This document shows, one piece after another, positions 6,785 to 16,598 of a stretch of DNA of 64,000 bases. Below the pieces are notes generated by a model. That model ran no database searches. It saw only the letters and a program-made list of their open reading frames with translations, and was not told the origin of the DNA. This DNA is from Longimicrobiaceae bacterium (GTDB lineage: Bacteria > Gemmatimonadota > Gemmatimonadetes > Longimicrobiales > Longimicrobiaceae): NCBI GenBank assembly GCA_036375715.1, contig DASVBS010000031.1:186001-250000 (forward strand). The letters are read 5' to 3'. The translations under genes and the position numbers were made by a program. The stretch's first letter is position 1. Each line of letters begins with the position of its first letter.

Positions 6785-7816
6785 GTGTCCAACGAGCACT
6801 TCGATCCGGAGGCGGGCCAGGGGGGCACGGCGGTGGAGGAGGAGCTCCCGACCGCGGAGCGTCGCGAGCGCGGTCTGCGCTCGGTAGCGGAGGTCAAGAC
6901 CTACGACTTCCGTCGCCCTCACCGCGTGTCCAAGGAGCGCCTGCTCGCCCTGGAGGCGATGTACGAGCGCTTCGTGAAGTCGCTCGAGGGATGGCTGGTC
7001 GGCCGCGTGCGAACCAAGGTCGAGCTGGCCCTGTCCTCGGTGGAGCAGATCAGCTTCTCCGAGTTCACCCACACACTCAGCACTCCCTGCGCAGCCTATC
7101 TCTTCCGGATCCAGGATTCGGGCGGGATGAAGGGGGTGATCGACGTGGGTCAGGACTTCGCCTACTTCCTGGTCGATCGACTCTTCGGCGGGGGCGGCAC
7201 GCCGTCCGTCCTGCCGCGCGCGCTCACCCCCCTCGAGCGCATGGCGGTGCGTACCGTCGCGGACCGGGTGCTCGTGCTCCTGACCGAGATCTGGCAGGAC
7301 CACATCGCCCTCGACGTCGAGGTCAGCGGGTTCGAGTCGATCCCGGAGATCCTGCGCGCGGAGAGCCGCGACGACCCCATGCTCGTCGCGAACATCGAGA
7401 CCACCGCGCCGGGCGTGAAGAGTCACCTCTCCATCTGCCTGCCGCTCGCCACGCTGGAGAAGTTCTTCAGCTCGAGCGGCCAGGGGCAGGCGGGGATGAT
7501 CACCGGCTCGGAGAAAGAGCGTAGCCACTATCGGCGGATGGCCGAGAAGTCGTTGCGCGCCACCCGCCTCGACATCTCCGCTCGGATGCCGGACTTCAAG
7601 CTTTCCATGCGCGAGCTGGGCGCGCTGCGGGAAGGAAGCGTCGTGGCGACGGGGATCCCCTGCGACACCGAGCTCCAGATCCTGATCAATGGTCGGCTTC
7701 GCTTCCGTGCGGCTCCCGGACGGGTAGGTCGACGCCTGGCCGTGAAGATCCTGGGGCAGCTCGGCCCCGGAAACATCGACGACATCACCAATCATTCAGG
7801 CGAATCGGATGTCTGA
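6785..7816 (+). CDS. fliM: Flagellar motor switch protein FliM
   Basis: C-ring switch protein of 343 residues. It has the FliM middle CheC-like domain (KTYDFRRPHRVSKERLLALEAMYERF opening, DVGQDFAYFLVDRLFGG) and a C-terminal SpoA/surface domain (about 265-335). The N-terminal CheY-binding peptide (typically LSQxEIDALL) is not evident in the first 30 residues, which are acidic; CheY-P binding at this site is therefore uncertain. GTG start at 6785, 4 nt after the fliL stop. The 3' end overlaps fliN by 8 nt. Confidence 0.94.
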   Translation: MSNEHFDPEAGQGGTAVEEELPTAERRERGLRSVAEVKTYDFRRPHRVSKERLLALEAMYERFVKSLEGWLVGRVRTKVELALSSVEQISFSEFTHTLSTPCAAYLFRIQDSGGMKGVIDVGQDFAYFLVDRLFGGGGTPSVLPRALTPLERMAVRTVADRVLVLLTEIWQDHIALDVEVSGFESIPEILRAESRDDPMLVANIETTAPGVKSHLSICLPLATLEKFFSSSGQGQAGMITGSEKERSHYRRMAEKSLRATRLDISARMPDFKLSMRELGALREGSVVATGIPCDTELQILINGRLRFRAAPGRVGRRLAVKILGQLGPGNIDDITNHSGESDV

Positions 7817-8153
7817 CATCGAAGCGATGAACAAGCTGACCGAGCCCCCCGTGTCCGCAAACTTCGCGGAGCTCGCGGATGGCGAGGCGACGGACGGCGA
7901 GGTCTCCATCAACATGCTCCTCGACCTCACCCTGCCGGTCTCCGTCGAGCTGGGGCGAACCAGCATGCTGGTGCAGGACATCCTGCGCCTCGGGCGGGGC
8001 TCGGTGATCCAGCTCGAGCGCCTCGCGGGCGAGCCGATCGACATCTACGTCGGTGACCGGCGCTTTGCCGAAGGCGAGGTGGTGGTGCTGGGTGAGCAGT
8101 TCGGCATCCGCATCACCCGGATCGTGTCCCAGGTGACCGGCGCCGAAGCCTGA
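7809..8153 (+). CDS. fliN: Flagellar motor switch protein FliN
   Basis: Short C-ring subunit of 114 residues built around one SpoA domain: LLDLTLPVSVELGRTSM, ILRLGRGSVIQLERLAGEPIDIYV, and a C-terminal GEQFGIRIT segment match the FliN consensus closely. The ATG at 7809 lies inside the end of fliM, and the stop overlaps the fliOP start by one base, so all three are probably co-translated. FliN gives the docking site for FliH on the C-ring. Confidence 0.96.
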   Translation: MSDIEAMNKLTEPPVSANFAELADGEATDGEVSINMLLDLTLPVSVELGRTSMLVQDILRLGRGSVIQLERLAGEPIDIYVGDRRFAEGEVVVLGEQFGIRITRIVSQVTGAEA

Positions 8154-9325
8154 TGAGCTTTGCCGCGGTCGGGAGCATCGTCTTCTCCCTGGTCCTGGTT
8201 CTGGCACTGGTCGGGATCGGCGCACGGCTGGCGCAGCGCTTCGCGGGCCGCATCGGCTCGGGTCGCGGTCGGCTGCCGCTCGAGGTGGTGCAGCGCGTGG
8301 CGTTGGGGCCGAAGCAGGGAGTCGCCATCGTCCGCATCGGCGAGCGTGCGCTCGCCGTGTCGATGGGGGAGGGTGGCGTGCGAACGTTGATGGAGCTGGA
8401 CGAGGGGAGCGTCCGCGCCATCACCGCACCCGCCGAAGCGGCGCCGCCGCCGCTCCGTGCCGTGCCGAGCTTCCGCGAGGCCCTGGGGTCCGCTGTCCGC
8501 TCCGCGTTGCGCGGCGCGGCGATCTTCGCGGCCATCTCGCTCGCGCTGAGCGCGAGTCCCGCCGAAGCGCAGCAGGCCCAGCAGGTGGAGTCGATCACCA
8601 GCGTCTCCACCCCCGACGTGGAGCGGATCGACCAGGCTATTACCCGTGTGGCGCCGACCATCGACCTGCGGGTAGGTGACGAGGCGGAAGGTGGGCTGCG
8701 GCTGAGTGGCACCGTGGGCGTGGTGGTGATGATGGGGCTGCTGACGCTCCTGCCCACCCTGATCCTGATGATGACCAGCTTCACCCGCATCCTGGTCGTC
8801 CTCCACTTCCTGCGGCAGGCGCTGGGGACGCAGAGCGCCCCGCCCGCTCACCTGGTCGCGGCGCTGGCGCTGCTGCTCAGCGGCTTCGTCATGGCGCCCA
8901 CCCTCCGTGAGGTGAATCAGACCGCCATCCGCCCCTGGCTCGACGGCGAAATCCAGCAGGCGGAGATGATGAAGACCGGCGTCGTTCCGTTCCGCGAGTT
9001 CATGGCGGATCAGGTGCGCGAGCGCGACCTCGCGATGTTCATGGATCTGGCCGAGGTGCCCGCGGTGCGTAGCGTCGACGAGGTGCCGCTCGTGGTGCTG
9101 GTCTCCGCCTTCGTCACCAGCGAGCTGCGCACCGCCTTCCAGATCGGCTTCGCGCTCTTTCTCCCCTTTATCATCATCGACCTCGTGGTCGCGGCGGTGC
9201 TGATGAGCATGGGGATGTTCATGCTCCCGCCGGCGATGGTCTCCCTGCCGGTGAAGCTCCTTCTCTTCGTCCTCGTGGACGGGTGGTCCCTGATCGTACA
9301 GGGGCTGATTTCCAGCTTCCGCTAG
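8153..9325 (+). CDS. Fused FliO-FliP flagellar export gate protein
   Basis: A single 390-residue frame covering two normally separate proteins. Residues 1 to about 100 are FliO-like: an N-terminal membrane helix, then a small cytoplasmic domain (LPLEVVQRVALGPKQGVAIVRIGERAL). Residues about 105-140 look like the retained FliP signal peptide (RSALRGAAIFAAISLALSASPAEA). From about 180 to the end is FliP (MMTSFTRILVVLHFLRQALGTQ, PFREFM, ELRTAFQIGFALFLPFIIIDLVVA). FliP forms the core of the export pore with FliQ and FliR; FliO helps its assembly. An internal GTG in frame near 8462 could also start a separate FliP, so the fusion product may be cleaved or partly re-initiated. Confidence 0.92.
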   Translation: MSFAAVGSIVFSLVLVLALVGIGARLAQRFAGRIGSGRGRLPLEVVQRVALGPKQGVAIVRIGERALAVSMGEGGVRTLMELDEGSVRAITAPAEAAPPPLRAVPSFREALGSAVRSALRGAAIFAAISLALSASPAEAQQAQQVESITSVSTPDVERIDQAITRVAPTIDLRVGDEAEGGLRLSGTVGVVVMMGLLTLLPTLILMMTSFTRILVVLHFLRQALGTQSAPPAHLVAALALLLSGFVMAPTLREVNQTAIRPWLDGEIQQAEMMKTGVVPFREFMADQVRERDLAMFMDLAEVPAVRSVDEVPLVVLVSAFVTSELRTAFQIGFALFLPFIIIDLVVAAVLMSMGMFMLPPAMVSLPVKLLLFVLVDGWSLIVQGLISSFR

Positions 9326-10396: not shown

Positions 10397-11475
10397 TGGC
10401 GGATCGGGAGGATCGCACAGAGGAAGCAACCCCCCGGAAACGGGAGGATGCACGTCAGGAAGGACGGGTTCCCCGCAGCCAGGAGCTCACCACCGCGATG
10501 CTATTCCTGGCTGCGGCGGGGATTCTGTACGGACTCGGTCCGGCGCTCGCCCGCGGGGTCGCCTCCACGGTGACCTACGGGATGATGTCGGCCACCTCGT
10601 CCCTGCTCAACGAGCAGGGGGCGGTGGAGTTCATCCGGCAGATCGGCTGGAAGCTGCTGGCGGCCATGTCCGCCTTCCTGCTGGCGACAAGCGGCGCGGC
10701 GCTGGGGGTGTCCGCGGTTCAGGCGCGCGGAGTTCTCACGCTGAAGCCGCTCGAGCCAAAGTGGGAGCGCCTCAACCCGATCCCCAACGCCCGGCGCATC
10801 TTCGGTCTGCAGAGCCTGATGGAGCTCTGCAAGTCGCTGCTGAAGCTGCTGGTGATCGGTCTGATGCTCTACTTCGCGCTGCGAAACGCGTGGAGTGACG
10901 GCCTCGCCCTCGCCCAGCAGTCGCCGCGCCAGCTCGTGGAGGTGCTGCTCCGGTACTCCGTCCGTGTGCTGATGACCGTGGGGATCGCCTACCTCGCGCT
11001 CGCCCTCGCCGATTACACCTGGCAGATCTGGCAGCACGAGAGAGATCTGCGGATGACCAAGCAGGAGGTGAAGCAGGAGCACCGCGAGAACGAAGGCGAC
11101 CCGATGCTCAAGGCCCGCCGTCTGTCGATGGGACGATCGCTGGCCCGGCGGCAGATGTTCCAGGAGGTGCCGAACGCCGACGTGGTGGTCACCAACCCGA
11201 CGCACATCGCCGTCGCGTTGCGCTATGACCCCGCCCGCGCCGACGCCCCCATCGTGGTGGCGATGGGGCAGCGGAAGGTGGCCGAGCGCATCAAGCGGAT
11301 CGCCCGCGAGGCGGGGGTTCCCACGATCGAGAACAAGCCGCTCGCGCGCGCCCTGCTCGCCAGTGCGAAGGTCGGCATGATGATCCCGGCAGAGCTGTAC
11401 GTGGCGGTCGCCGAGATCCTCGCCTTCGTCTACAGCCGACGCGGCGACCCGCGGCGTGAGAGAGGGTACGCGTGA
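10396..11475 (+). CDS. flhB: Flagellar export switch protein FlhB
   Basis: 359 residues: the N-terminal motif DRTEEATPRKREDARQEG, four membrane helices, and the cytoplasmic autocleavage site N267-P-T-H (VVTNPTHIAVALRY). Cleavage after this Asn lets FlhB switch export from rod/hook to filament substrates, in response to FliK. Because the FliK of this window is unusual, FlhB is its expected direct partner. Start overlaps fliR, end overlaps flhA by 4 nt. Confidence 0.97.
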   Translation: MADREDRTEEATPRKREDARQEGRVPRSQELTTAMLFLAAAGILYGLGPALARGVASTVTYGMMSATSSLLNEQGAVEFIRQIGWKLLAAMSAFLLATSGAALGVSAVQARGVLTLKPLEPKWERLNPIPNARRIFGLQSLMELCKSLLKLLVIGLMLYFALRNAWSDGLALAQQSPRQLVEVLLRYSVRVLMTVGIAYLALALADYTWQIWQHERDLRMTKQEVKQEHRENEGDPMLKARRLSMGRSLARRQMFQEVPNADVVVTNPTHIAVALRYDPARADAPIVVAMGQRKVAERIKRIAREAGVPTIENKPLARALLASAKVGMMIPAELYVAVAEILAFVYSRRGDPRRERGYA

Positions 11476-13553
11476 GCACCGCCGCCGTGGGGATCCTGCC
11501 GCCGGTGCTTGCCAGCCGGCGGAACGCGGAAGTGGGGATGGCGATCGCAGTGGTGCTCGTCATCGCCCTGCTGATCGTTCCACTGCCGGCCTTCCTGCTG
11601 GACCTCTGCCTGGCGCTGAGCATCAGCCTCAGCCTGGTGGTGCTGCTGGTCGCGCTCTACACGACCGACCCGCTGGAATTCAGTGCCTTCCCGGCGCTGA
11701 TCCTCCTGCTCACACTGTTCCGTCTGTCGCTGAACGTCGCCAGCACGCGGCTGATCCTGTCCGAGGGCGAGGCGGGCGCGGTGATCGAGGCCTTCGGTCA
11801 GTTCGTGATCGGCGGCAATTACGTCGTCGGCCTGGTGATCTTCCTGATCCTGGTCGGGATCAACTTCATCGTGATCACCAAGGGTGCGGGCCGCGTGGCC
11901 GAAGTCGCGGCGCGTTTCACCCTCGATGCGATGCCCGGCCGGCAGATGGCGATCGACGCCGACCTCAGCGCCGGCCTGATCGACGAGGTAGAGGCGAAGC
12001 GACGGCGCGAGGAGATCACGCGCGCGGCGGACTTCTACGGCGCCATGGACGGCTCCTCGAAGTTCGTGAAGGGAGACGCCATCGCCGGGCTGCTGATCAC
12101 GGCCATCAACATCCTCGGTGGGATCTTCGTCGGGATGGGGCAGCGGGGTATGCCGCTGTCGCGCGCGCTCACGGAGTACACGATTCTGACCGTCGGCGAC
12201 GGGCTCATCTCGCAGATCCCGGCGCTGATCGTCAGCACCGCCGCCGGCATCATGGTGACGCACGCCTCGGGCGGCCTCCGTGTGGGTCCCGCGCTGGCGA
12301 GCCAGCTCAGCGCGCACCCGCGGGCATTGTGGATCTCCTCGGGGGTGATGGCGACCTTCGCGGTCGTTCCCGGCCTGCCTACCCTCCCCTTTCTCACGCT
12401 GGCGGGCGGTACCGCGCTGCTCGCCCGCGCCGCGACGGCGAGCGAGAAGCTGCGACTGGCACGGGCGGAGGAAGCGGAAGCCATCGAGCAGGAGCCGGCG
12501 GTCGAGGAGAGCCCGCTGCGCGACCTGCTGCAGCTCGATCCGATCGAGCTCGAAGTTGGTTACGCGGTGATTCCGCTGATCGACGAGGGTCAGGGCGGCG
12601 ACCTGCTGGAGCGCATTTCCCTGCTGCGGAAGCAGGCCGCGCTGGAGCTGGGAATCCTGATCCCGCCGGTGCGCATCCGCGACGACCTGCGACTTCCCGC
12701 CAACGAGTACGTCATCAAGCTGCGCGGCGCCGAGATCGCCCGCGCCGAGGTGATGCCGCGCTTCCTTCTCGCCCTGGATACGGGCGGGGTCTTACGCCCG
12801 ATCGAGGGGATCGAGACGGTCGATCCCAGCTTCGGCATGCCCGCGCGCTGGATCGCCGCCACCAAGCGGGGAGAGGCGGAGTCGCTCGGCTATGTGGTGG
12901 TAGAGCCGTCCACGGTGGTGGCGACTCACCTGATGGAGGTGCTGAAAGGCAACGCGGCGGATCTCCTCGGGCGGCAGGACGTGCAGGAGATGCTGGATGC
13001 GCTGCGGAAGACGCATCCCGCGCTGGTCGACGACATGGTGCCCAACCGGGTCTCGCTCGGGCTGCTGCACCGCGTGCTTCAGCGGCTGCTGAAGGAGCGC
13101 ATCCCCATTCGCGACCTGGTGACCATTCTCGAGGCGCTGGGGGACGCCGCGGAAGGGACGAAGGATCCCGAGGTGCTCACCGAGCACGTCCGCCGGGCGC
13201 TCTCCAACGTGATCGCGCGCCTGTACATGGACAGCTCGGGTTCGATCCGGGGGATCACGGTGGGCCCGCGGCTCGAGGCGGCGCTCATGGGCCTCTTCAG
13301 CCCCCGCGCCGGCCAGTCGAACCAGACCCTGCTGAATCCGGATTCGCTCGCGGCGCTGCTGCGCGACCTGTCGCAGCTGGCGGCGACCCACTCGACCGAC
13401 GGTCGTCCCGTGCCGCTGATCACGCCGCCCGGCCTGCGCGTCGGCATCCGCCGCCTCATCGAGCCCGTGCTCCCCGCGCTCCCGGTGGTCTCCATCGGCG
13501 AGCTGCCACCGCACGTGAATCTCAATAGTGTGGCGACGTGGGAAATGGTATGA
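11472..13553 (+). CDS. flhA: Flagellar export gate protein FlhA
   Basis: 693 residues, normal for FlhA. The N-terminal half has about eight membrane helices (residues 18-320) including the FHIPEP-type region (FPALILLLTLFRLSLNVASTRLIL; RADFYGAMDG-type loop). The C-terminal cytoplasmic domain (about 350-693) forms the nonameric ring that docks chaperone-substrate complexes. GTG start at 11472 overlapping flhB. A tandem/inverted repeat element begins 4 nt after the stop and separates it from flhF. Confidence 0.97.
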   Translation: MSTAAVGILPPVLASRRNAEVGMAIAVVLVIALLIVPLPAFLLDLCLALSISLSLVVLLVALYTTDPLEFSAFPALILLLTLFRLSLNVASTRLILSEGEAGAVIEAFGQFVIGGNYVVGLVIFLILVGINFIVITKGAGRVAEVAARFTLDAMPGRQMAIDADLSAGLIDEVEAKRRREEITRAADFYGAMDGSSKFVKGDAIAGLLITAINILGGIFVGMGQRGMPLSRALTEYTILTVGDGLISQIPALIVSTAAGIMVTHASGGLRVGPALASQLSAHPRALWISSGVMATFAVVPGLPTLPFLTLAGGTALLARAATASEKLRLARAEEAEAIEQEPAVEESPLRDLLQLDPIELEVGYAVIPLIDEGQGGDLLERISLLRKQAALELGILIPPVRIRDDLRLPANEYVIKLRGAEIARAEVMPRFLLALDTGGVLRPIEGIETVDPSFGMPARWIAATKRGEAESLGYVVVEPSTVVATHLMEVLKGNAADLLGRQDVQEMLDALRKTHPALVDDMVPNRVSLGLLHRVLQRLLKERIPIRDLVTILEALGDAAEGTKDPEVLTEHVRRALSNVIARLYMDSSGSIRGITVGPRLEAALMGLFSPRAGQSNQTLLNPDSLAALLRDLSQLAATHSTDGRPVPLITPPGLRVGIRRLIEPVLPALPVVSIGELPPHVNLNSVATWEMV

Positions 13554-13682: not shown

Positions 13683-14522
13683 GTGAACCTTCAGCGTTTC
13701 CTCGCTTCCGACCCCTACCGCGCCTTCGAGGCCGCTCGTGCGGCGCTCGGGGACGACGTGATGGTGGTTCGCTCGCGGGATTACCGCGAGGGGGAGCGGA
13801 GGGTCTTCGAGATCGTGGCGACCACGGAGGCCGAGGTCGCGGCGTTCCGGCGTCGGATCGAGGCGGGTCCGTTGCCGGAGCGGGGGCATGTCGTTCGACG
13901 GGGGGCGGCGCGGCCGCTGGTGATCGCGCTGGTCGGGCCGACGGGGGCGGGGAAGACGACCACCCTCGCCAAGCTGGCGTCGCACCCGCAGGTCTTCGGC
14001 AAGCGCGCGGTAGGGCTGCTGACGCTGGACACCTATCGGGTGGGCGCGATCGAGCAGCTCGGCATCGTGGCCGAGCTGACGGGGCTGCCGCTGGAGGTGG
14101 CGTACGCTGCGGGCGAGGTTCGCGCGGCGATCGACCGCCTGGCCGCCTCCTGCGAGGTGATCCTCGTCGACACCCCCGGGCGCGGCCCGAAATCCGAGGC
14201 GAACGGGGAGTGGGGCTCCCTCCTCGAGGAAGCCGACGCGGACGAGGTGCACCTCGTCCTGCCGGCGACCCTGCGCGGAGACGTGGCGGACGCCGCCGTT
14301 CGCTCCTTTGCCGAGCGCGGCGTCACCCACCTCCTGTTGACCAAGCTCGACGAGGTGCCGGGCGAGGTCGGGGTCGCCGACCTGGCGGCGGCGGTCAGCC
14401 TGCCGGCGCGCTGGATCACCGACGGGCAGGAGATCCCCACGGACCTGCGCCCCGCGGGCACTCGCATCCTCGCCTCGCTGGGGCTGTCCTTCACCGCTGA
14501 TCCGCTGCGGAGCGTCGCATGA
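13683..14522 (+). CDS. flhF: Flagellar SRP-type GTPase FlhF, short form
   Basis: 279-residue SIMIBI GTPase that guides flagellar placement. The first about 60 residues resemble the FlhF B domain (MNLQRFLASDPYRAFEAARAALGDDVMVVRS). The G domain follows almost at once with G1 VGPTGAGKTTTLAKLA, DTYRVGAIEQL, G3 DTPGRG and G4 TKLDE. Full-length FlhF proteins are about 350-450 residues and have a four-helix N domain between B and G; here there is no room for it. GTG start at 13683. The stop overlaps the flhG ATG by 4 nt. Confidence 0.92.
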   Translation: MNLQRFLASDPYRAFEAARAALGDDVMVVRSRDYREGERRVFEIVATTEAEVAAFRRRIEAGPLPERGHVVRRGAARPLVIALVGPTGAGKTTTLAKLASHPQVFGKRAVGLLTLDTYRVGAIEQLGIVAELTGLPLEVAYAAGEVRAAIDRLAASCEVILVDTPGRGPKSEANGEWGSLLEEADADEVHLVLPATLRGDVADAAVRSFAERGVTHLLLTKLDEVPGEVGVADLAAAVSLPARWITDGQEIPTDLRPAGTRILASLGLSFTADPLRSVA

Positions 14523-15361
14523 GCACGCAGCTCGAGGCTCTGCGCCGGCAACGCTCCGTACGCCCGTTCCTGTCCTCACGCGGGGATGAACGGAGTCCGG
14601 TCGTCTTCGCCAGCGGGAAGGGTGGAAGCGGCACCTCCACGCTGGCCGCGCTGCTCGCAGTGGGTGCCGCCGGCGAGGGCCTGCGGGTTCTGCTGGTGGA
14701 TGGCAGTGCGGGGATTGGCTCGCTGCACCTCTACCTGGGGACCGAGGCTGGTAGAGGTTGGGCCGCCCTGAAGGAAGGCGCTTCGCCGGAGGAACTGCTG
14801 GTGGCCGTAGCGGAGCGGCTCACCCTGCTCCCGAGCGGTGAGGCCACGGCCGCGAGCGCGGTCTCGGCCGCGGAAAGGCAGGCGCTCTTCCGCCGCCTCG
14901 CGCCGCTCTTCCCCGCCTACGACCTCGTGGTGGTGGACGGCGGCTCGCGCGTGGAGTCTGTGATGGCCGCATGCGCGGCCGGCGCTTCCCGGCTGGTGGC
15001 CGTCACCACGCCTGATCGGGTGTCGCTCGCCGCCACCTACGCGCTGGTCAAGGTGGCTCTCGCGCGCATGCCGGATCTGTCGGTGGCGGTCCTCGCGAAC
15101 CGGGGTGGCGATGGGGCGGGCGAGAGTATTCGCGCGGCGGCGGTGCGCTTCCTCGACCGAACGGTGGATGCAGTGGGCGCCATCCCGGACGACGAGTGCC
15201 TGCGCGCGGGGATCAACGCGGGCATGAACCTACAGGACGCGGCGACGGGATCTCCGGCCGCCGCAGCAATCATCAAAGCGGGAAGTCGATTCGTGCGCGG
15301 TCTCCGTGCGGGTTCGGCGGCCGGCGAAACGCTACAACTCTCTCGGAGGTCGTTCCCATGA
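14519..15361 (+). CDS. flhG: FlhG/FleN-type MinD-like protein with degenerate P-loop
   Basis: 280 residues with the FlhG fold: N-terminal QLEALR helix similar to the FlhF-activating helix, a deviant P-loop region, and the late motif LVAVTTPDRVSLAATYALVKV typical of MinD/FlhG. The P-loop reads GKGGSGTST: the signature lysine (K34) is kept but the Walker lysine (position 39) is Thr. The usual DxDxGLAN and DTGAG motifs are also replaced (VDGSAGIGS, VDGGSRVE). ATP hydrolysis is therefore doubtful. Position between flhF and fliA is the standard one, so the role in controlling flagellar number or placement is probable, perhaps as a non-catalytic regulator of FlhF. Confidence 0.88.
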   Translation: MSTQLEALRRQRSVRPFLSSRGDERSPVVFASGKGGSGTSTLAALLAVGAAGEGLRVLLVDGSAGIGSLHLYLGTEAGRGWAALKEGASPEELLVAVAERLTLLPSGEATAASAVSAAERQALFRRLAPLFPAYDLVVVDGGSRVESVMAACAAGASRLVAVTTPDRVSLAATYALVKVALARMPDLSVAVLANRGGDGAGESIRAAAVRFLDRTVDAVGAIPDDECLRAGINAGMNLQDAATGSPAAAAIIKAGSRFVRGLRAGSAAGETLQLSRRSFP

Positions 15362-16122
15362 ACGAGGCATCCTTCCCGGAACAGCGGCCGGACGGCACGC
15401 TGGAGCCGCTCGCGCGCGACCGTCTGCTCACCGAGCACCTCGGCCTGGTGCACCACGTGGCCCGGCAGCTCTCTCGCCGCCTGGCCGTGGAGGTCGATTT
15501 CGACGAGCTGGTCAGTGCCGGCACCATCGGCCTGATGAACGCCGTCGACTCGTTCGACCCTGGGCGCGGCCTCGCGTTCAGCACCTTCGCCGCCCCCCGG
15601 ATTCGCGGCGCCATTCTGGACGAGTTGCGCCGCCAGGACCACGTACCGCGCTCGATCCGGCGCAAGAGCCGCGACATCGCAGCTGCGCGCGAGGGCTTCA
15701 CCCGGGAGCACGGCTACGCCCCCACCGACCAGGAGCTGGCGGACCAGCTTCAGGTGGATCTGAAGACCTTCTGGCGGTGGCAGTCCGAGGTCGAGGGAGC
15801 CTTCTTCGTGCCGCTCGACCAGCCCTTCAACGAGGACGACCGCCGCTCCGGCACCCCCATGCAGAGCGTCCCCGGTGTGACCGGGGAGATGATCGAGGAC
15901 GACATCAACCATCAGCAGGAGGTCGAAGTCCTCCGCGAAGCGATCATGGGGCTGAAGGAGCAGGAGCGCATCGTCCTCTCCCTCTACTACTTCGAGGAGC
16001 TGAAGCTGCACGAGATCGCGACCATTCTCGAGCTGACTGAATCGCGCGTCTCGCAGATTCGCTCCAAGGCGATCTCCAAGCTGCGCTCGGAGATCGGCTC
16101 TCTCCGGGAGCAGGTCGCATGA
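15358..16122 (+). CDS. fliA: Flagellar sigma factor FliA (sigma-28)
   Basis: 254-residue alternative sigma factor for late flagellar genes. Region 2: HLGLVHHVARQLSRRLAVEVDFDELVSAGTIGLMNAVDSFDPGRGLAFSTFAAPRIRGAILDELR in outline (core motif DELVSAGTIGL). Region 3 follows (YAPTDQELADQLQV), and region 4 ends with LKLHEIATILELTESRVSQIRSKA. Start chosen at ATG 15358, which overlaps the flhG stop (ATGA); the longer frame from 15196 lies inside flhG. No anti-sigma factor flgM is visible in the window. The stop overlaps the next gene. Confidence 0.96.
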   Translation: MNEASFPEQRPDGTLEPLARDRLLTEHLGLVHHVARQLSRRLAVEVDFDELVSAGTIGLMNAVDSFDPGRGLAFSTFAAPRIRGAILDELRRQDHVPRSIRRKSRDIAAAREGFTREHGYAPTDQELADQLQVDLKTFWRWQSEVEGAFFVPLDQPFNEDDRRSGTPMQSVPGVTGEMIEDDINHQQEVEVLREAIMGLKEQERIVLSLYYFEELKLHEIATILELTESRVSQIRSKAISKLRSEIGSLREQVA

Positions 16123-16598
16123 GCACGGTCATCGAGGCGCTGCTCGCCGTGGTGCGGGAGGCGCGGGTCTCGCCAGGCCCCTACGCGTTCGCCGTCGGTG
16201 CGGGTGCGCTCGGAGGGGCATTGCTGGCGCTGGCGATTGCGCGGATCGCGCTGGCAATTGTGAGGTTCCCGCGCCGGCGCTCGAGCCACGTCGCTTCGCT
16301 CTTCCCCAGGAGAGGAGCACAGACGGAGATCGTCCGTGCCGGCATCCCGCGGGACGCGATGGAGTTGCTGAGGCACGTCCGCGCGAGTCCTCGCGGCCGG
16401 CGGAATCTGCCGCTTCCGGCACGAATTGCCGTGCCTTTGTCGGCAGCGGGCCTGCGCGCCAACCGCGATCTGAACCTGGAACTCGTTGCCACGGAGGGAG
16501 TTGCGCACGATGTCCGACGACGCCGCCGGTCGGCACGGCCGTTGCCCCTCCGCCCGCCGACCCACACCTCGACTCACTCGCTCGGGAGCAGGGCATGA
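16119..16598 (+). CDS. Unknown small membrane protein between fliA and flgF
   Basis: 159 residues, not recognised. It is linked on both sides: its ATG overlaps the fliA stop and its stop overlaps the flgF ATG, both by 4 nt, which strongly argues that it is a real, co-translated flagellar gene. It has one hydrophobic segment (about residues 22-48, Ala/Leu-rich) followed by a basic region (RFPRRRSS) and a very Arg-rich C-terminus (about 125-159). The topology suggests a single membrane anchor with a basic tail in the cytoplasm. Nothing more can be said of function. Confidence 0.7.
   Translation: MSTVIEALLAVVREARVSPGPYAFAVGAGALGGALLALAIARIALAIVRFPRRRSSHVASLFPRRGAQTEIVRAGIPRDAMELLRHVRASPRGRRNLPLPARIAVPLSAAGLRANRDLNLELVATEGVAHDVRRRRRSARPLPLRPPTHTSTHSLGSRA

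Follow-up and report, generated by a model that had tools for sequence, protein, structure and literature searches.

FlhG proteins are described in PMC12826062 as ATP-dependent dimers that carry a DQAxxLR helix, and throughout as an ATP-driven switch. According to PMC12327844, the K36A exchange in the Geobacillus protein GtFlhG abolishes ATP binding and GpsB is lost, whereas hook distribution shows no discernible change in the hydrolysis mutant D65A; the same paper indicates that Gln8 of FlhG matters and that B. subtilis FlhG binds the C-ring protein FliY independently of nucleotide. In Vibrio, K31A is non-functional and D60A only slightly affected (PMC7226244). Given these published phenotypes, an FlhG that does without the catalytic Asp is no great puzzle, whereas loss of the P-loop Lys comes as a surprise. 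However, E. rectale TadZ shows ATPase activity without both lysines, a Lys of an adjacent helix compensating, and MSMEG_3743 K57A retains ATPase activity (PMC10482377), so that Lys loss by itself is no proof of lost ATP binding. Within the limited literature searched, no title or abstract start described a Lys-less FlhG.

The window, a stretch of 64,000 nucleotides from a Longimicrobiaceae bacterium, carries such a protein inside a flagellar operon, in which flhA, flhF, flhG, fliA, fliM, fliN and the other ORFs given with coordinates below lie on the forward strand. The flhG gene (14519..15361, 280 aa plus stop), defined by the ORF call and by PDB sequence and model matches, shares ATGA overlaps with the upstream flhF (13683..14522, 279 aa, GTPase motifs intact) and with the downstream sigma-28-type fliA (15358..16122, Pfam sigma-70 regions 2-4 at 15361-16119). 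Together with flhA (11472..13553), the first gene of the string, they form a conserved flhA-flhF-flhG-fliA arrangement whose order is the same in most fetched relative loci. Pfam supports fliI, fliK, fliM, fliN, fliO-fliP and a flgF-type rod gene in the window; further ORFs are, by our own reading, probably fliQ, fliR, flhB, flgE, flgG, flgA, flgH and flgI. In this operon fliO and fliP are fused into a single 390-aa ORF (8153-9325; PF04347 at 29-114, PF00813 at 193-385), and a 159-aa ORF without Pfam matches lies between fliA and flgF (16119-16598). Downstream of a fliJ-like ORF, a 181-aa ORF (1704-2249) has MgtE_N and weak FliG-like Pfam matches; it is perhaps a MotE-like protein. The window FlhF is short and scores 132.8 bits against an NCBIfam FlhF cut-off of 174.15 bits, which was passed by 0 of the 198 class genomes. 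The C-ring genes fliM and fliN (6785..8153, by Pfam) encode candidate partners of the FlhG core, by analogy with the systems in PMC12826062 and PMC12327844.

By PDB sequence comparison, the closest solved structures to the window protein are those of FlhG (4rz2/4rz3) and FleN. With its AlphaFold model (pLDDT 88, pTM 0.85), Foldseek placed FleN (FleN-AMPPNP) and FlhG in the top ranks; the VIA Z was 28.8 for 5j1j and 28.6 for 4rz3, with MinD at 26.0 and below and the second FlhG entry, 4rz2, at only 24.6. The predicted fold is therefore of the MinD/SIMIBI type and nearest to FlhG/FleN. Curated NCBIfam models gave general MinD/ParA matches only, all under cut-off. An origin from CpaE/TadZ was ruled out, since FlhG/FleN came out best in both sequence and structure and 3fkq, which we take to be TadZ, ranked far down. 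The window protein is a true FlhG of the Gemmatimonadota. A second, canonical FlhG was not found in the window's genome, where the other five matches are weak (E 4e-8 or worse): one (L003) is an ApbC/Mrp-like ORF carrying GKS and the remaining ones are long ORFs that, from their length only, we take to be tyrosine kinases. The plasmid collection contained no FlhG match, and the window's assembly has no 16S of its own.

The P-loop of this protein reads SGKGGSGTST (residues 32-41, 14612..14641). Residue 39 is Thr, encoded by ACC at 14633-14635, where 4rz2 (FlhG) and 8pb9 (FleN) have Lys at the equivalent spot, so the sequence-only reading, which had noticed Thr in place of the Walker A Lys in GKGGSGTST, was correct. 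The signature Lys34 of KGG is retained, and position 34 is K or R in 59/69 Lys-less rows of the alignment described below, but KGGSGTS departs from the deviant Walker A pattern KGGxGK(T/S). That reading also stated that the Asp motifs differ, which holds for one residue: in the A-prime motif D61-G-S63 (14699..14707) the catalytic second Asp of DxD is replaced by Ser63 (Asp in 41/69 Lys-less relatives), but Asp61 is retained, as is the Walker-B Asp140 of the switch II motif D140-G-G-S-R144 (14936..14950). The last residue of this motif, Arg144, takes the place of a Gly found in Lys-bearing FlhG rows.

We then looked at how widespread the change is. With FlhA as the marker, 42 of the 198 genomes of the class count as flagellate, and FlhG turned up in 38 of the 42. 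In three of the four others (G094, G159, G173) flhA or flhF sits at a contig end; in the fourth, G002 (L100), fliA is directly 3' of flhA, and flhF and flhG are both missing. Further draws brought the sample to 81 FlhG loci, not counting the MinD-like L036 and G396, a ParA-like protein dropped for having no flagellar neighbours; one locus (L034) has no P-loop sequence, so that P-loop counts cover 80 rows. The phylum-level draw yielded matches from the same class only. The Lys is retained in 11/80 rows, namely 10/10 of family f6 plus G106 of f9, and is replaced in the other 69 by T (47), A (14), V (7) or S (1). These Lys-less rows span 28 genera and four families (f1, f2, f3 and f7), and one of them, G148 of f7, is Gemmatirosa kalamazoonensis of the phylum Gemmatimonadota (100% DNA identity to NZ_CP007129.1 over an 8-kb stretch), a phylum to which kinship with these genomes also assigns the window. 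Alignment with related FlhG sequences, the check proposed by the earlier reading, thus shows a conserved loss (69/69 rows outside f6 and G106) and not a base difference unique to this genome. As ACC is moreover two bases away from either Lys codon (AAA, AAG), the absence of Lys is not a matter of chance or error. A Lys loss that affects these genomes as a whole was rejected on a small control: ParA-like proteins have retained GGVGKT in 4/4 sibling loci examined.

The timing of the loss was studied on an FlhG tree from which the helix, P-loop, DxD and switch II columns had been removed and 14 degenerate, long or incomplete rows left out beforehand. All 56 Lys-less rows used fell on one side of one branch (bootstrap and SH-aLRT 100), and the arrangement with two independent losses, f6 being joined with f1, f2 and f3, was rejected (AU p 0.003). 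A larger, quick tree of 82 rows, all but one of that alignment, also gave one change. The FlhA tree alone neither rejected a single Lys-less clade (AU p 0.137) nor proved it, and 2 changes were counted on the FlhA+FliA tree, in our view an effect of the very long G106 row. Judged from these trees, a single loss of the P-loop Lys lies in the ancestry of many Gemmatimonadota; the operon may also have spread horizontally.

Pairwise flhG dN/dS within genera, obtained by a simple counting method with several dS values near or above 1, ranged from 0.06 to 0.38, and Lys-less groups lay in the same range as the Lys-bearing f6 (0.18-0.36). By this measure the flhG genes are kept under purifying selection, and this includes the FlhF-less groups g120 (0.24-0.33) and g56 (0.07-0.19). 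In genus g56 (L064, L066, L154, L155; L154 is cut by a contig end), FlhF is gone and FlhG is about 184 aa long, without the Asp61 region or the helix.

The N-terminal helix that the sequence-only reading had reported as kept is indeed present: TQLEALR occupies residues 3-9 (14525..14545; Gln4 at 14528-14530), within a model helix of residues 3-12, and retains the Gln and LR of the canonical FlhF-activating DQAxxLR motif, but not its Asp and Ala. Its presence covaries with that of FlhF among relatives. When the helix was scored as Q-x-x-x-(LVIMA) upstream of the P-loop, 51 of 80 rows had both helix and FlhF, 18 had FlhF without the helix, 11 had neither and none had the helix without FlhF. The FlhF motif Gln (EQL-type) is retained in 51/51 helix-bearing rows and lost in 11/18 helix-less ones. 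On independent branches 5.5/7 pairs went in the same direction and none in the opposite one (median p 0.031), the separate helix-FlhF tests having too few pairs each for p 0.05. Counter-cases, in which the helix is absent but the FlhF Gln is present, are g65 (3 rows), g74 (L008), g119 (L047), L028 of f6 and G106; in the helix-less genera g65, g74 and g119 the FlhF motifs are normal. In family f3 (L007, L025, L039, L041, L042) the helix Gln is replaced, mostly by Ser, while in FlhF EQL becomes EEL/EEI-type and GQ becomes GH or GA, as if the two active sites were altering together. The covariation indicates that it is for FlhF that the helix has been retained, despite the Lys loss. FlhG is also kept without FlhF in 11/81 loci, and a genome-wide search of these 11 genomes gave Ffh/FtsY-level matches only in 11/11 (none better than E 3e-15, whereas two controls reached E 1e-70 or better; two of the FlhF-less genomes, G342 and G382, have a completeness of about 89%). 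Since purifying selection acts on the FlhG core even in genomes that have lost FlhF, FlhF regulation is not the sole job of FlhG.

What, then, became of the nucleotide pocket? Rates were computed over 267 columns for 56 non-degenerate Lys-less rows, 13 rows being set aside (all 69 were also computed). Gly33, Lys/Arg34, Gly35, Gly36, Gly38, Ser/Thr40, Asp61, Asp140, Gly142 and Asn194 are all among the slowest 3-12% of columns, whereas residue 63, the catalytic-Asp position, is at the 44th percentile and changed 14 times over 76 rows. Position 40 holds Ser or Thr in 69/69 Lys-less rows, with 10 S/T swaps and no other residue over the 80-row tree. The pocket is broken in 13/68 Lys-less rows (L157 set aside), and FlhF is lost or altered in 12 of these 13; L032 is the exception, with FlhF and helix intact. 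Conversely, nine Lys-less rows have an intact pocket despite a lost or altered FlhF, and on independent pairs, which are few, the pocket-FlhF link is weak (median p 0.125). Slow evolution of the pocket and its FlhF-linked breakage argue, at the level of sequence, against an idle pocket. The pocket may nevertheless have a structural role, since even the 184-aa proteins of g56, which have no Asp61 region, retain Gly38 and Ser/Thr40.

A Lys-less FlhG that is kept by selection suggests a protein that no longer runs the textbook ATP cycle. The explanation that we favour, with about even confidence, is that the nucleotide switch of FlhG was rebuilt after one ancestral Lys loss, the helix still acting on FlhF and the core having an FlhF-independent job. 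It starts from what is directly observed, that is a single loss, purifying selection, helix-FlhF covariation, a constrained pocket and a core kept without FlhF. The N-terminal helix would insert Gln4 beside the FlhF active site and speed the FlhF GTPase, a stimulation to which the covariation points. The MinD-like core would keep a Mg/nucleotide-type pocket (Gly36, Gly38, Ser/Thr40, Asp61, Asp140, Asn194). Its binding of a nucleotide or phosphate would most likely be weak or atypical, probably with little or no hydrolysis, and hence there would be no ATP-driven monomer-dimer-membrane cycle. By analogy with described systems, the job of the core would most likely be C-ring binding through FliM/FliN, so that FlhG would survive where FlhF is lost. 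Against this explanation, model FlhG proteins need the Lys, as described for K36A and K31A, so that the pocket may be empty.

A strong rival, and one that we consider quite possible, is the view put forward by the sequence-only reading, which inferred a fixed, non-cycling FlhF regulator: the pocket would be empty and structural only, and the protein a nucleotide-independent adaptor, its MinD-like scaffold carrying a helix that stimulates FlhF permanently. The Lys has been regained in 0/69 rows, the catalytic Asp position is relaxed, Lys mutants of model species lose ATP binding or function in the reports cited above, and the most degenerate cores of FlhF-less genomes, those of g56, are still selected. 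An amphipathic membrane-targeting helix at the C-terminus is likewise evident in neither Lys-less nor f6 rows, although these tails were judged by eye with no quantitative control. However, a pocket with a structural task alone would not be expected to follow the fate of FlhF, yet most breaks of the pocket coincide with a lost or altered FlhF, and its remaining residues rank among the slowest to evolve in the protein. A fixed and ATP-free FlhG is possible, and the conserved Lys loss and the retained, covarying helix stand; the wording "fixed, non-cycling" goes beyond the observations, given the slow pocket and relatives that keep ATPase activity without Lys, and FlhF regulation is not the whole of the protein's task.

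Those relatives, TadZ without both lysines and MSMEG_3743 K57A, also favour a compensated ATPase, in which another basic residue, such as Arg144 of switch II or, on the TadZ pattern, a Lys from a helix, replaces the Lys and ATP cycling persists. Arg144 would be a suitable candidate, being found in 47/69 Lys-less rows against Gly in 13/13 Lys rows, but it is not universal; Lys178 is present in 68/69 Lys-less rows but also in all 13 Lys-bearing rows, and is thus not a new compensating residue. With, in addition, an unconstrained catalytic Asp position (Ser in the window protein), we regard persistent cycling as unlikely. Far less probable is decay, with the gene being lost and the Lys missing through relaxed selection or sequencing error: FlhF and parts of FlhG have gone in some lineages (g56, part of g63, G154), and both genes in G002, but a single ancient loss common to 28 genera, purifying selection, a two-base codon difference, the conserved operon and a helix that covaries with FlhF all speak against it. 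A bolder proposal, which we find rather doubtful, is that in most Gemmatimonadota the FlhG switch is wholly uncoupled from ATP, the helix being a permanent activator of the FlhF GTPase, the old pocket sensing another ligand or partner and the core acting as a stand-alone C-ring assembly factor that outlives FlhF.

In this Lys-less and partly FlhF-less clade, nature has taken apart the FlhG helix, the ATP switch and the C-ring-binding core as in an experiment, and the purpose of the FlhG ATP cycle becomes testable in cultured organisms. Compared with known systems, the window protein resembles FlhG/FleN/YlxH, the MinD-like regulators of flagellar number, in its fold, its best sequence and structure matches, the flhA-flhF-flhG-fliA order, the N-terminal Gln helix and the residues Asp61, Asp140 and Asn194. 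It differs from them in the change of the P-loop Lys to T/A/V/S, the unconstrained catalytic Asp position, the switch II Arg144 and, by eye, the lack of an evident C-terminal membrane helix. With TadZ/CpaE/Ssd, the pilus- or septum-linked atypical ParA/MinD proteins, it shares the ParA/MinD type and the lost P-loop Lys; in contrast to these, its first core strand follows after only 27 residues, with no receiver-like N-terminal domain of about 100 residues, and it has an FlhF-type helix and a flagellar operon on both sides, with no tad genes nearby. Finally, the residue changed is the same as in the K36A and K31A laboratory mutants of FlhG, but whereas ATP binding or function is abolished in those mutants, here a clade with intact flagellar operons carries the change as its fixed, natural condition.
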